Assembly (NCBI RefSeq): GCF_000935125.1
Contig: NZ_JRKI01000027.1
Location: 124,001-188,000 of the forward strand
Origin: Streptomyces natalensis ATCC 27448
GTDB lineage: Bacteria; Actinomycetota; Actinomycetes; Streptomycetales; Streptomycetaceae
Length of the DNA: 64,000 nucleotides
Direction of reading: 5' to 3'
Shown here: in pieces, positions 4,575 through 57,276 of the stretch
How the letters are laid out: each line of letters opens with the position of its first letter
How positions within the stretch are numbered: the stretch's first letter is position 1
Made by a program: the position numbers and the translations under genes
The notes under the pieces: model-generated
Database searches by the model: none
The model's input: only the letters and a program-made list of their open reading frames with translations
What the model was told of the DNA's origin: nothing

Positions 4575-5223
4575 CCAAACAGCAACTCCGGTACCGCTGC
4601 CATCGCATTACGTCCGGCGACGGCCGGTCCCTGGGCGGCGGCCGCTGGAGTAGCCCCACGAGGTCATTTACGGAATGTGCGCCAGATTCCGAGCATTGGC
4701 GCCGGTCCGGAGGGGGTGGGCCGTACCGACTGATTCCCCAGCTGAGAACGCTGACCGGTGTGAGCATGCTGCGTCCACTACAGTGCGGTGTGGGCCGTGA
4801 CTGGCGCTGAGGTGGAGCACCACCGGGGAGCGGTCTGACGAGACGTCGGTTGCCGTGCGCCTGGGCGAGTGGTCAGCAACGCCTGGAGGGCAAGCCTGCT
4901 GGATCCGGGCGGGCTGGTACCTGATCGGCGCCACCCACCACCAGGTCCCTCAGACCATCGGCCCCCTGGTTTTTGCCGCCGCCCTGCTGATAGCGGCCCG
5001 GCTGCTCGCCGGCCGCACCTCGGCCTCAGGGCGGATCCGGCCGACCTCGCTCTGAGTGCCCATATCCGTCACCAAGAACGAGGGTCGAGAGTGCCTGCGC
5101 TTCCGGCTCGGCTCATCGACCCGTTGTGCGCTCAGTTCGCGGCCCTTCTCCCGGCTCGGCCGGTGTATGCCCTCTCGCATCCGCTGGGCTGCACCGGCGG
5201 CGGTCGGGCCTGGCCCCTGCGGC
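4575..5223. other. 649-bp gap; one weak ORF, otherwise nothing recognised
   Basis: This gap between the GNAT gene and the methyltransferase stop has no convincing gene. A plus-strand frame 4855-5055 (66 residues) ends in one hydrophobic segment (GPLVFAAALLIAARLLAG) and an Arg-rich tail, as in the C-terminus of a membrane protein. It lacks a clear ribosome site and could be a remnant. The last 160 bases hold no feature I can support. Confidence 0.4.
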
Positions 5224-7055: not shown

Positions 7056-7126
7056 ATGCGGCTGAGAACAGCGCACGAAAAAATGCGTTTGTTCGAATCC
7101 CCGCAGCCGGTTAACCTCCCCTCCAT

Positions 7127-7198
7127 CGACGTGTAGCTCAGCAGCAGAGCACCGGGCTTCGGACCCGGAGGGCGCAGGGGCGGAACCTGCCACGTCGG
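7127..7198 (+). ncRNA. tRNA-like cloverleaf RNA (anticodon position UCG) with non-canonical loops
   Basis: The 72 bases fold into a full cloverleaf with only Watson-Crick pairs: acceptor CGACGTG/CACGTCG (7127-7133/7191-7197), U8 and A9, D stem GCTC/GAGC (7136-7139/7147-7150), anticodon stem CCGGG/CCCGG (7152-7156/7164-7168), 5-base variable region, T stem GCAGG/CCTGC (7174-7178/7186-7190), and discriminator G7198. The anticodon loop CTTCGGA puts UCG (Arg, CGA) at 34-36. The D loop AGCAGCA lacks G18G19 and the T loop GGCGGAA lacks TTCRA, so the normal elbow cannot form and ordinary translation use is doubtful. No CCA is encoded. It ends two bases before the ATG of the next gene. Perfect stems with altered loops argue for a tRNA mimic rather than a decayed tRNA. 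Confidence 0.7.
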
Positions 7199-7200
7199 CT

Positions 7201-9495
7201 ATGGACGACGACGCTGAGCAGCAGCTTTCCGCCCGGCCCGGCGCATCCACGGACTACCCGCAGGGGCTGCTGGCCCGGGCTTTCGTGACCGCGTTGACTC
7301 ATGGCGACGCCGAGACCCGGCGCCGGGCCGAAAGCCGTATCGACCGCTGGCGTGCCGTGCTGGCCGGGATGGCCGACGGCCGGCTGGCCATCGGTTCGCG
7401 CGCCCCGGTGGCCGGGCTGCCCGCCTGGGTGACACCGGAGGTCGTACGGGGCGGGTTCGCCACGACCGCCGCGAGCGCCGAGGGCCCGCTCCAGCCGTAC
7501 GAGCGCGAGGCCGCGACCCGGGCAGGGATACCCGCCGAGCGGCGGGCCCTCTTCGCGTACTGCCTCACCGAACCGGGGCTTTCCCGGCTGTACGCCCTGC
7601 TCGACAGCGGCCGCTACGAGATCGCCGTGCCCGAGGAGGCCGCGCTGCTGACCGTGGCGTGGCTCGTGCGGGCGGGGGACGTGGCCGGTGCGCTGGAACT
7701 CGTCGACGTACTGGAGCCGTTCGCCGACCGGCTGCGGTTCACTCCCCGGCCGTCCGCCCTCCCCTCCCCCGACGTCGAGGCGGTCCATCGGCGCACGGTC
7801 GGCGACGCCGCAGAGGCCCTGGCGCGCCGGAGGCCCCACGCTGCCGTCGAAGCGCAGCGCGAGGCGCTCACCGTCTGGCAGCCGTTCGGCGATGAACTCC
7901 TCGCCCACTGGCTGGAAACCGCCGCCGATACCGGCCGCGTGCTGGAGCGGGTGCCCGACGCCGCCTGGTACGAGCGCGGTGCGGTGCTGCTGCGCCGCTA
8001 TCACGACCTCGCCGCGGCCCACACACGCTGCACCAAGCACCGCAGCCCGAAGGAGAACCTGGGCATCCTGCGCGGCGCCCTGGAGGAGACGGTCGCCGGG
8101 CGGCCGCTGGACGCGCGTCGGCTCGGGCTGCTGCGGCACGCGGTGGAATCCATGGTGCGGCGGCGCGGCCTGCCCGGTTCCCGCCGGCACACGCAGCTGC
8201 GCATCCGGCAGGCGGCGCAGGCAGCCCCGCCCTCGCACCACGCACTCGCCCAACTGGTGCTGCGCCGGCTGTCCGAACTCCCGCAGGAGACGGGTGTGGC
8301 CGATGTGGCGCCACTGGTCGCGGACGTGTCGGCGGGCGAGGCGGCAGGGACCGGGCTGCCCGCCGGAGCACCCGTACCGGTCGCGATCCGGCAGGTGGTC
8401 GCGGCCGCGCTGAGTGCCCCGGTCGGCACGCTCGTGGAACGCGGCGTGGTGCCCTCGGCCGAGGTTCTGGCCGAACTCGTACCGCAGTTGGTCGCAGTGG
8501 CCGTTGCGCAGGCGTATCCGGACGAGGCGCTGCGCACCCTGATGGCCGCGAACTACCGGGCGTTCCGCAACCGCCGTTCGCTGCTCCTGCTCAACCTCGA
8601 ACGGCAGGTGCGGGCGGAGGAACTGCCCTGGGTACGCGCCGTGGCCGACCACCGCGTCGACACGGAGGGGCAGGAACCGGCGCACACCACGCTGCGTCAG
8701 CTCGGGGAACTGGCCGTGCAGGCATTTCCCGGGACGCTCCTGCCCAATCCGCTGGTCCGCGAACTGGGCGTACTGGCCCGGCAGGCCGAGGCCGGCGCAC
8801 CGTTCGTCGAAGAACTGGCCGCGGACATCTTCATGGGCACCTTCACCCCGAAATTCCTCGCGGCGGCGCGGATCGCCGCGGAGCTGCTCGGCGGCACGCT
8901 CTACGCGCACTACTACGGCATCGACTACGCGGCCGTCCGCAACCTCGCCATCACCGAGGCCGGCGAAGCCCTGACCCGCCACCATGCGGCGCGCACCTCA
9001 CCCGGATTCGCGCGGCTCTGCACCGAACGTGCCGGCGGCCCAACGGGCTGGTCGGTGGCGGCCAACGGCAAGGTCATCGAACAGGCCCAGATCCTCACCA
9101 CACACAATCTGGCCACCCTCGTCGGCCGCGTCGGCATCCGCCCCGCCCCCGGCTGGGACGATCTGGCCCGGCGCTGCTTCACCACCGTGTGCCGGAAGAC
9201 AGCGCGCCTACAGGGCAACCCGCGGCCGCTGTCCACGATCAAGGACGCCGCCTACGCATGGCGTCAGATGATCTTTCACCTGTCGCTGTGCGATCCCGCC
9301 ACACAGGCCCGGGTGATCGCCGAACTGGACGAGGAGACGGCCCGCCATCCCGACCACGTCGCGGCCCGGCTCGCCCCGGCGTTGACCGGCCTGCGCCAGG
9401 TCGCCGCCGGCGGCACGGCAGACTCGGGCGGCGGACGGCGCTTTCTCGGGTGGACCACCCAGCGGCATTGGCTGCTCCCCCACGCCCGCGGATGA
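7201..9495 (+). CDS. Large helical protein of unknown function, directly behind tRNA-like RNA
   Basis: 764 residues; I do not recognise the family. The ATG at 7201 is the first possible start: the frame is open upstream to 7066 but has no ATG, GTG, TTG or CTG. No Shine-Dalgarno sequence lies at the right distance, because the preceding bases belong to the tRNA-like RNA. The protein looks almost entirely alpha-helical, with no signal peptide, no membrane helix and no Walker motif. A basic segment near residues 305-340 (RHAVESMVRRRGLPGSRRHT) and an FRNRRSLLLLNLERQVR block near 460 could bind nucleic acid. Distinct blocks near 560-590 (FLAAARIAAELLGGTLYAHY) and 675-695 (TIKDAAYAWRQMIFHLSLC) should be useful search keys. 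Context suggests an RNA partner. Confidence 0.85.
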   Translation: MDDDAEQQLSARPGASTDYPQGLLARAFVTALTHGDAETRRRAESRIDRWRAVLAGMADGRLAIGSRAPVAGLPAWVTPEVVRGGFATTAASAEGPLQPYEREAATRAGIPAERRALFAYCLTEPGLSRLYALLDSGRYEIAVPEEAALLTVAWLVRAGDVAGALELVDVLEPFADRLRFTPRPSALPSPDVEAVHRRTVGDAAEALARRRPHAAVEAQREALTVWQPFGDELLAHWLETAADTGRVLERVPDAAWYERGAVLLRRYHDLAAAHTRCTKHRSPKENLGILRGALEETVAGRPLDARRLGLLRHAVESMVRRRGLPGSRRHTQLRIRQAAQAAPPSHHALAQLVLRRLSELPQETGVADVAPLVADVSAGEAAGTGLPAGAPVPVAIRQVVAAALSAPVGTLVERGVVPSAEVLAELVPQLVAVAVAQAYPDEALRTLMAANYRAFRNRRSLLLLNLERQVRAEELPWVRAVADHRVDTEGQEPAHTTLRQLGELAVQAFPGTLLPNPLVRELGVLARQAEAGAPFVEELAADIFMGTFTPKFLAAARIAAELLGGTLYAHYYGIDYAAVRNLAITEAGEALTRHHAARTSPGFARLCTERAGGPTGWSVAANGKVIEQAQILTTHNLATLVGRVGIRPAPGWDDLARRCFTTVCRKTARLQGNPRPLSTIKDAAYAWRQMIFHLSLCDPATQARVIAELDEETARHPDHVAARLAPALTGLRQVAAGGTADSGGGRRFLGWTTQRHWLLPHARG

Positions 9496-55255: not shown

Positions 55256-57276
55256 AAGAGGAAGTACCGCTGCGCCATGGGCACTTCATTCACGTAGGAC
55301 CGCGGCACGGTCACTCCGTTGAGTTCCGTACGGGTGTCACCCGTGGTCGCGCCGCCGATGGTGACCTCGAAGCTGTTGTGGTCGACCTCGAGCTCGATGT
55401 TCCACGTGTCGTTCAGCTTCATGTCGGCCTTGGTGACGCCCCGGGTGCTCTTGATCGGTACGAACTCCTTGTCGAGGCCGAGGCCGGGCCGGGTGCGCTT
55501 GTTGAGGCGGGCAGCCACTGTGTTTGCTGTGCCGCTGCGCGTCACGTCGGGTGCCACGAAGTTGACCGAGTTGGTCTTCGTGGCTCGGCCGGTGGCGCCC
55601 CAGACCGCCCGGGGCAGGTAGGGCTGCGGCGTCGTGATCGACGCGTTGGCATCGCCGACCTGCGCGTACGCGAGCTGCCCGCCTTTGAGGACCATGTGCA
55701 TCTTCACGCCGAAGAACTTCGGCTCCCACAGCACCAGGTCCGCGAGCTTCCCCGTCTCCACGGAACCGACGTGTCCGTCGATGCCATGTGTGACCGCCGG
55801 GTTGATGGTGTATTTGGCGACGTAGCGACGTGCTCGGTAGTTGTCGTTCGGCGTCAGCCGGTCCGCATTGTGCGGGTGGCCCGTGTCGTCCGTGTCGTCC
55901 TTGACCGGGCGGACCTGCGCGTGCGCGAGGTCCTCCGGCAGATGGCCGTAGCGGGACTTCATGACGTGCGCGGTCTGCCACGTACGCATGATCATCTCTC
56001 CGATCCGTCCCATCGCCTGGGCGTCGGAGGACATCATCGAGATGGCGCCCATGTCGTGGAGCAGGTCTTCCGCGGCCATGGTGGACGGCCGGATGCGGGA
56101 GTCGGCGAAGGCCATGTCCGCCGGAATATCCGGGTTGAGGTGGTGGCAGACCACCATCATGTCGACGTGCTCCTTCACGGTGTTCACCGTCAAGGGGCGG
56201 GTCGGATTGGTCGAGGCGGGCAGGACGTTCTTGTATTTGACCAGCTCGATCATGTCCGGAGCGTGGCCACCACCGGCTCCTTCGACGTGGAAGATGTGAA
56301 CCGAGCGTGCCTGGCCCGACTCGCCTGTGAAGGCGTCGCGGGTGCTGTCCAGGAAGCCGGACTCGTTCAACGAGTCGGCGTGCAGGGCCAGCTGAACTCC
56401 GCGGGTATCACACACCTTCAGCGCCGCATCGATCACGGCGGGCGTGGCACCCCAGTCCTCGTGGACCTTGAACCCGATGACACCGGCGTCGACCTGTTCC
56501 TCAAGGGCATTCTCGTCCACCGTGCTGCCCTTGCCGAGCAGACCGATGTTGACGGGGTACTGGTCCAGGCTCTCGAAGGCCCGCGTGATGTGCCAGGAGC
56601 CCGGGGTCACACTGGTGGCCGTACTGCCCTCGGCCGGGCCGGTACCGCCGCCGATGAGGGTGGTCACTCCCGCGGTGAGCGCCTCGTCGATCTGCTCGGG
56701 ACAGATGAAGTGGACATGGGTGTCCACGCCGCCCGCGGTGAGGATGCGCCCGTTGCCAGAGATGACCTCGGTGCTCGGGCCGACCACGAAGTTCTTCGGC
56801 CGCGCCGTCACCGGAAGCCGATGCCCCTTGGGGATGCGGCGCGGCATCTCGAACTTCTTGATCTGGTCCATCGTCTCGGGGTTGTACGCCTTGCCGATGG
56901 CGTCGATCTTCCCGTCGCGGATACCGACGTCTGCCTTGACCACACCCCACCAGTCGAGGATCAGCGCACCTGTGATGACGGTGTCCACGGGCTTGCATCC
57001 CTTGTCGTCCCCGGTCCTTGGGATGTGCGCCATGCCCATCGACTCACGGATCACCTTGCCGCCGCCGAAGATCATCTCGTTGCCGCTGTGCTCGGGCCCG
57101 CCGCTCCAGTCCGCCTCGATTTCAAGGGTCAGGGCGGTGTCGGCCAGGCGCACGCGGTCTTTGGTGGTGGGCCCGTACAGAGCGGTGTAGTCGGCCCGCT
57201 TCAGCATGTTGCCCGGTCGCCCGGCCTGCTGGCTCGCCGAGCCGGTGCCCGACGGCATGTTCGCGCTCTTGCTCAC
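55252..57276 (-). CDS. ureC: Urease alpha subunit UreC (long, divergent form)
   Basis: 674 residues, about 100 more than usual. The GTG at 57276 overlaps the ureAB stop (GTGA) and has AAGGAGG six bases before. Active-site residues are kept: metal His in [14 protein letters not shown], the carbamylated Lys in [27 protein letters not shown], and the flap [20 protein letters not shown] with the mobile Cys. Extra segments include [20 protein letters not shown] before the TAGGVDTH block, and others near [16 protein letters not shown] and [20 protein letters not shown]. It hydrolyses urea to ammonia and carbamate with two nickel ions. The end MAQRYFLF is canonical. Confidence 0.93.

Follow-up and report, generated by a model that had tools for sequence, protein, structure and literature searches.

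A tRNA-like RNA with a hypervariable anticodon loop beside a helical protein gene in Streptomyces natalensis: a possible bait for tRNA-targeting enzymes

The locus and its relatives

The DNA analysed here (the window) is a stretch of 64,000 nucleotides from Streptomyces natalensis ATCC 27448 (assembly GCF_000935125.1, contig NZ_JRKI01000027.1, positions 124,001 to 188,000), in which a tRNA-like RNA is directly followed by an open reading frame (ORF) for a helical protein without known family. Across the module the RNA measures 73-76 nt. An earlier note, made from the letters alone, had described this pair as a tRNA mimic with an unrecognised protein, and the observation as a whole was confirmed. 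The parts of the locus, in window positions, are as follows.

7089..7117, + strand: predicted promoter-like site, with -35 TTGTTC (7089-7094), a 17-nt spacer and -10 TAACCT (7112-7117)
near 7124-7126, + strand: predicted transcription start of the window locus, equal to the 5' end of the tRNA-like RNA
7127..7199, + strand: tRNA-like RNA of 73 nt, called tRNA-Arg(tcg) by ARAGORN, with the anticodon loop CTTCGGA
7140..7146, + strand: D loop AGCAGCA, read as A14 G15 C16 A18 G19 C20 A21 (numbering by eye)
7159..7163, + strand: anticodon-loop positions 34-38 (TCGGA), hypervariable across relatives
7179..7185, + strand: T loop GGCGGAA (54-60), with G55 and C56 invariant and 54/58 either GG or TA
7201..9495, + strand: ORF for a helical protein without known family (764 aa, 82 kDa, pI 9.1)
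7213..7225, + strand: GCTG-N5-CAGC in ORF codons 5-9, conserved as nucleotides, a possible 4-bp mini-hairpin

The 21 Watson-Crick pairs that had been counted in the cloverleaf could be read from the sequence (stems of 7, 4, 5 and 5 pairs), the D loop without GG and the T loop GGCGGAA without TTCRA were found as described, and the ORF starts at 7201, one base past the end of the RNA given by ARAGORN (7199). Rfam recognised 7127-7199 as a tRNA with 54.3 bits against a cut-off of 29, ranking it 60th by score among the 71 Rfam tRNA matches of the genome, and the RNA model R1 gave it 101.6 bits, the sequence itself being part of that model. As the structure is kept in 112 distinct relatives, the cloverleaf is not a product of chance.

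Relatives were sought in one genome per GTDB species and the best 80 of the 244 found were kept, so that distant members are under-sampled. A tRNA-like RNA lay directly upstream of the protein gene in all 80 kept loci, and no near-complete homologue without an upstream cloverleaf, of the kind that the earlier note had looked to for a refutation, was seen among the loci inspected. Loci L002-L008, which were retrieved with a query containing the RNA, were excluded from this linkage evidence. A regular-expression count of 143/148 misses L057, L061 and L067, which are protein fragments, and L071/L074, which are one locus with diverged RNAs. The kept loci are nearly all from Streptomyces, with one each from Wenjunlia, Kitasatospora, Nocardia, Actinomadura and a genome titled Actinobacteria bacterium; carriers include S. 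rimosus NRRL WC-3904 and S. viridochromogenes NRRL 3413. When plasmid records were searched with the protein by tblastn, six of 72,556 matched (two each from Streptomyces, Embleya and Curtobacterium; 39-80% identity), the module being present also on Curtobacterium plasmids, and in all six the RNA was found 0-12 nt before the start codon.

Among 293 genomes of the order the module is patchy, the protein being found in 48 and the RNA model matching in 49; two of the latter matches (G182 and G251, 67-68 bits) proved to be ordinary tRNA-Trp genes with TTCGA T loops, leaving 47. R1 had been built partly from genomes later scanned with it, with stricter filters, and the loci of the two genome collections overlap. 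RNA and protein occurred together in 46 genomes, the protein without the RNA in two (G173 and G214, both protein fragments) and the RNA without the protein in one (G226). The orphan in G226 is an intact RNA with the loop CTGCACA and a promoter-like sequence (L244); it adjoins genes interpreted as bkd, and nothing of the ORF scored. A sample of 396 genomes from the phylum gave four profile matches, three from Streptomyces and one from another family (G547), whose homologue, at about 39% identity, has two tRNA-likes upstream in the same place with canonical TTCGAA T loops. Two distant matches (L072 and L073, E about 1e-4) were lost in the profile search, had no ARAGORN tRNA and were dropped, and no relatives of the module were found in the phage and viral collections searched. 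It is almost certain that the tRNA-like RNA and the ORF form a linked two-gene module.

A divergent and partly degraded subgroup with shorter proteins was also observed (L056, L058, L059, L060 and L066), four of the five having the loop CTGCACA or CTCCACA; in L056, L058 and L066 the N-terminal part of the protein is absent.

The RNA body and its anticodon loop

Structure statistics refer to the 112 distinct RNAs, with tRNA numbering assigned by eye. Standard pairs occupy 2351 of 2352 stem pair cells, the 7/4/5/5 cloverleaf being kept as in an ordinary elongator tRNA, and the covariation that had been proposed as a check was found: nine of the 21 pairs were altered on both sides, a result matched by 0/500 shuffles, while slid controls paired at 31-47%. 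The fairly low tRNA score and the odd loops could be those of an ordinary tRNA in decay whose neighbour gene has nothing to do with it; however, this is contradicted by the compensatory stem changes and by the unbroken linkage of the 80 loci, and can be regarded as virtually untenable.

It had further been claimed that the tertiary elbow of a real tRNA could not form, and this did not hold. The G18G19 and TTCRA of ordinary tRNAs are absent, with A18 G19 in their place and G54 G55 C56 in 110 RNAs (T54 G55 C56 in two), yet A18, G19, G55 and C56 are present in 112/112, and an internal AG (18-19) occurs in all 28 D-loop variants. Given A18-G19 by position and the presence of C56, the 19-56 contact is possible, and the elbow is better described as remodelled and kept than as lost. 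Positions 54 and 58 change jointly (GG in 110, TA in two), and the tertiary partners are mostly the usual ones (U8 in 110, A14 in 112, G15 in 106 and C48 in 107). As the tRNA-likes of G547 have TTCGAA, the canonical elbow is likely to be the ancestral state and the altered elbow derived; a TTCGAA T loop is recorded for the diverged RNA copies of L071. The idea that selection keeps the fold and changes the loops stood for the fold but not for the odd D and T loops, which are conserved; the loop that is left free or driven by selection is the anticodon loop.

Elsewhere in the host genome, an unusual tRNA-Gly(TCC), whose D loop is AGTAGTA and whose T arm reads GTGCAAT (L167/L203, adjacent stretches of contig C3), resembles the D arm of the tRNA-like and is a possible relative.

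The anticodon loop combines fixed and changing positions. With L006 and L066 (one RNA with an unusual anticodon arm) excluded from A3 and from the loop tallies, C32 and U33 were found in 112/112 RNAs, a purine at 37 in 90/112, A38 in 93/112 and A35 in 1/112, and positions 34-38 comprised 35 distinct 5-mers. The anticodons resemble those for Pro, Gln, Gly, Arg, Ser, Trp, Tyr, Cys, Lys, Glu, Ala, His and Phe, one would read UGA, and, unlike in an ordinary elongator tRNA, the anticodon is not constant among orthologues. A FastTree tree of 109 proteins, in which long branches were flagged, requires the loop to have changed at least 54 times, the triplet 34-36 at least 50 times and acceptor position 3 at least 23 times. 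Pairs among 109 loci were also compared by divergence at the 4-fold degenerate sites of the ORF: loop divergence per site was 0.20 at a 4-fold divergence of 0.05-0.10 (8 pairs, not independent), 0.155 at 0.10-0.15 (22 pairs) and 0.164 at 0.15-0.20 (28 pairs), and the remaining RNA diverged by 0.013-0.023 per site over the same bins (0.013 in the first). Coevolution of the loop with particular residues of the protein was considered and rejected, as the top mutual-information scores differed little between loop (5.7) and body (5.9), and the ratio of protein to 4-fold divergence was alike in same-loop (median 0.74, n=34) and different-loop pairs (0.77, n=25; P=0.07).

Such a loop, with its constant C32 and U33 and frequent purine 37, resembles one used in decoding, and together with the many different anticodons this would suit a guide or codon reader, in which positions 34-38 would direct a ribonucleoprotein to ribosomes or RNAs, to act at particular codons. 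Five bases, however, offer little specificity, one of the anticodons would read UGA and no codon pattern was seen, and the protein matched no ribosome-binding family; this role is very unlikely. The combination of an altered elbow with an intact acceptor stem recalls instead the non-proteinogenic tRNA-Gly of staphylococcal cell-wall synthesis, whose changed D and T loops should weaken ribosomal use, and by that analogy the RNA could be a non-translational aminoacyl carrier, charged and withheld from the ribosome for use by the protein. The changed D and T loops are the trait in common; the staphylococcal tRNA-Gly has a fixed anticodon and no attached partner gene, whereas the module has a variable anticodon and a partner gene. 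Such a carrier is made highly improbable by an acceptor stem that hardly varies while the anticodons point to many amino acids, and by the lack of any match to an aminoacyl-transferase family.

The number of RNA copies also varies. Single copies were found in 68 of the 80 loci and double copies in 10, with three in L118 and four in L122 (three by a stricter regular expression), so that 12/80 are tandem; the copies mostly differ in their loop, although L122 has one loop three times. Tandem arrays and loop variability, together with the survival of the RNA without the protein in G226, are compatible with a passive decoy, an RNA that would soak up anticodon nucleases and spare the real tRNAs while the protein only stabilised or matured it. 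Against this, a partner of about 760 aa would be a costly stabiliser, and solo RNAs are rare (one of the 47 RNA-bearing genomes), leaving a passive decoy distinctly unlikely.

Promoter, transcript layout and protein

The sequence TANNNT ends 7-14 nt before the RNA in 103 of the 112 distinct upstream stretches (88 at 8-10 nt; shuffled mean 7.2), and it is preceded by TTG at a spacing of 17-19 nt in 96/112 (shuffled mean 0.46). From the position of this promoter-like site, transcription is expected to start at the RNA's own 5' end, and one such site should drive both the RNA and the ORF. The sequence TTGTTCGAATCCCC (7089-7102) had been a candidate for the remnant of a second, upstream tRNA, but was rejected because the -35 region of the homologues lies there.

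The ATG comes 1-2 nt after the RNA in nearly all Streptomyces loci, and no Shine-Dalgarno sequence was seen before it, so that the mRNA would be nearly leaderless once the transcript had been cut at the acceptor stem. Codon 5 encodes Ala in 91/108 loci and is GCT in 89 of these 91, compared with 2.7% of the Ala codons of the family, and GCTG-N5-CAGC was found in codons 5-9 in 88/108 loci; judged by this codon usage, the constraint on codons 5-9 is one that acts at the nucleotide level. A switch between the cloverleaf and a hairpin over the start codon appeared in the minimum free energy (MFE) fold of the window locus but was not accepted as a conserved feature. In 65% of 94 loci the observed starts had lower stability than their synonymous resamples, and they were unpaired to about the same degree (0.648 against 0.667).

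The closeness of the ATG, the conserved GCTG-N5-CAGC and a loop rate near the synonymous rate are all features expected of a cis-regulatory leader, in which the mRNA would begin with the cloverleaf, the protein would bind this structure to regulate its own translation, and the unread anticodon loop would drift. However, the tandem copies mostly carry different loops, in G226 an intact RNA occurs alone, with a promoter-like sequence but no ORF, and the loop is not free, given its invariant C32 and U33, its frequent A38 and its near-absent A35. A leader of this kind is therefore considered unlikely.

The protein belongs, as had been supposed, to no recognised family. For the window protein, Pfam, PHROGs and PADLOC gave no match at the limits used, and the best of NCBIfam was a single match with E=0.038 and 12.8 bits against a cut-off of 700. 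Searches of 45 members against Pfam, PADLOC, PHROGs and NCBIfam gave nothing beyond weak matches, those in Pfam being to six families, with one member each (E 0.02-0.23) and none a toxin family, and a profile of the protein found no match among PDB sequences. Its helical nature was borne out by AlphaFold2, which modelled nearly all of it as helix (pLDDT 86.4, pTM 0.78; C-terminal domain alone, 88.7 and 0.89). Foldseek at E<=0.001 returned nothing for the whole protein against PDB and BFVD or for the C-terminal domain against PDB, and the best VIA-align Z scores, 7.3 over 47 residues (root-mean-square deviation 1.9) and 7.8 over 86 (3.9), are in a range described as common by the tool itself. 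Conservation is most striking in EQ(A/S)QILTTHNLA, near residues 627-638. A candidate HEPN motif, R688-x4-H693, was rejected, as its R is invariant and its H is not.

A possible bait, and comparison with known systems

The RNA and the protein probably form a ribonucleoprotein that acts in trans. The earlier proposal of an RNA-protein pair under selection stands in so far as it rests on linkage and stem covariation, but two of its supports, a lost elbow and an analogy to Ro60, did not. Whether the anticodon loop is an exposed specificity surface is evenly balanced. In the mechanism considered here, cleavage at the acceptor stem would release the tRNA-like RNA from the transcript and leave an mRNA with almost no leader. 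The protein would grip the conserved RNA body, and the anticodon loop, left exposed, would serve as a bait or pseudo-substrate that can be changed, aimed at enzymes attacking the anticodon loops of tRNAs (VapC-like or other anticodon nucleases), be they from phages, from rivals or from the cell itself. In the version graded most likely, the RNA would restrain the protein and cleavage of the bait would free or activate it, making the module a guard of the type III toxin-antitoxin kind. This is favoured because of the fixed body, the variable and presumably exposed loop, the existence of known tRNA-cutting enzymes and a gene order like that of type III systems. A bait or guard module with toxin-antitoxin-like release is, tentatively, the best explanation overall; that it is directed at tRNA-targeting enzymes is possible, if on the unlikely side, and it is doubtful that it amounts to an RNA-guarded immune or competition system, in which an effector of new fold would be sprung by the cutting of the bait and tandem arrays would widen the range of enzymes sensed.

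Anticodon nucleases of actinobacteria are known to read this loop. The available text on VapC-mt11 of Mycobacterium tuberculosis reports cleavage following a GG whose last base lies immediately 3' of the anticodon, in 15/45 tRNAs in vitro and two in vivo (PMC6459853). G36-G37 was present in 57/112 RNAs.

Several observations weigh against the bait explanation. G36-G37 is not enriched, occurring in 9 of the 35 distinct loops and in 11 of 47 host loops, and the loops could not be accepted as copies of host tRNA loops, since seven of the 35 5-mers match where 4.2 are expected (P=0.07). The anticodon loop appears to change at about the synonymous rate or higher, an excess over neutral not being proven. 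No explanation was found for the near-absence of A35, or for the excess of A36 in upstream copies (11/16 distinct upstream copies against 18/96 adjacent ones). The acceptor stem at which the transcript would be cut is intact in only 28/94 MFE folds of the RNA with 36 nt of the ORF, the protein, whose toxicity is itself hypothetical, showed no recognisable motif of a nuclease or toxin, and the intact orphan in G226 does not discriminate between an antitoxin and a decoy. Nor do the neighbours help: the flanking genes were read as ordinary metabolism and transport (from the first 25 of 126 Pfam families), and no clear defence island was found among the 145 flanking genes scanned with PADLOC.

These 145 genes had been chosen by GC content at third codon positions (GC3) from 183 non-redundant genes of 305, with genes >600 aa left out. 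PADLOC at 1e-10 matched 38 families, the widest of which, among 25 listed, occurred in five members, and the matches were read as common methyltransferases, kinases and similar. No conserved third gene was found; the commonest neighbour family occurred in 12/86 loci and was read as inherited synteny.

The closest arrangement is that of the type III toxin-antitoxin systems (ToxIN, CptIN, TenpIN), in which, in the descriptions available, an RNA, often repeated, likewise lies directly upstream of one protein gene, on plasmids too. The module shares this layout, with one predicted promoter, 68/80 loci being single-copy. In contrast, its RNA forms a complete tRNA cloverleaf, and its protein is helical and of about 760 aa. 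None of the 45 members matched the ToxN/CptN/TenpN toxin family in Pfam or PADLOC, and the check for a ToxN-like fold gave no significant structural match in PDB.

Ro60 and bacterial Y RNA (YrlA) combine a tRNA-like module with a helical RNA-binding protein, and the present module likewise has a tRNA-like RNA encoded beside the gene of a helical protein. The analogy drawn in the earlier note found no support in the protein, as none of the 45 members matched TROVE in Pfam, and the module further differs in its hypervariable anticodon loop and in an RNA that abuts the start codon.

In the available account of mycobacteriophage tRNAs, the anticodon loop is likewise a changing surface in actinobacterial conflicts, its alteration being read by the authors as nuclease evasion (PMC10264068). 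Those are, however, phage tRNAs thought to escape nucleases, whereas searches of phage and viral collections did not find the module. The Bacillus cereus pseudo-tRNA tRNAOther is another tRNA-like RNA with an extra-translational role; it differs in lying beside a pathogenicity island, and the portion of the source available mentions no dedicated protein partner (PMC3399842).

No module of this kind was found among the open-licence papers listed on tRNA-like RNAs, anticodons, decoys, type III toxin-antitoxin systems and Ro60, and it looks like an undescribed RNA-protein machine. It would add to the known classes of RNA a tRNA mimic whose anticodon loop changes fast, and to the known proteins a family without a match to a known fold; if the bait explanation is true, cells would monitor tRNA cleavage through sacrificial tRNA look-alikes. 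ARAGORN labels the tRNA-likes as ordinary tRNAs (Arg, Pro, Ser, Gly, Gln, Trp and SeC). As gene finders are likely to do the same, Streptomyces tRNA gene counts may be slightly wrong, whichever explanation holds.

Other tRNA genes of the host genome were recorded in passing: six Glu(CTC)/Gln(CTG) genes within about 0.7 kb (G000:C61:164846-165507), and three odd ARAGORN tRNAs (Asp, Pro and Ala; L210, G000:C61:909304-909766), two of them weak in Rfam. Within the window, Rfam also matched a ZMP/ZTP riboswitch at 4787-4873 on the + strand (54.5 bits), and a 5_ureB_sRNA match was found at 56682-57048 (48.4 bits, cut-off 40).

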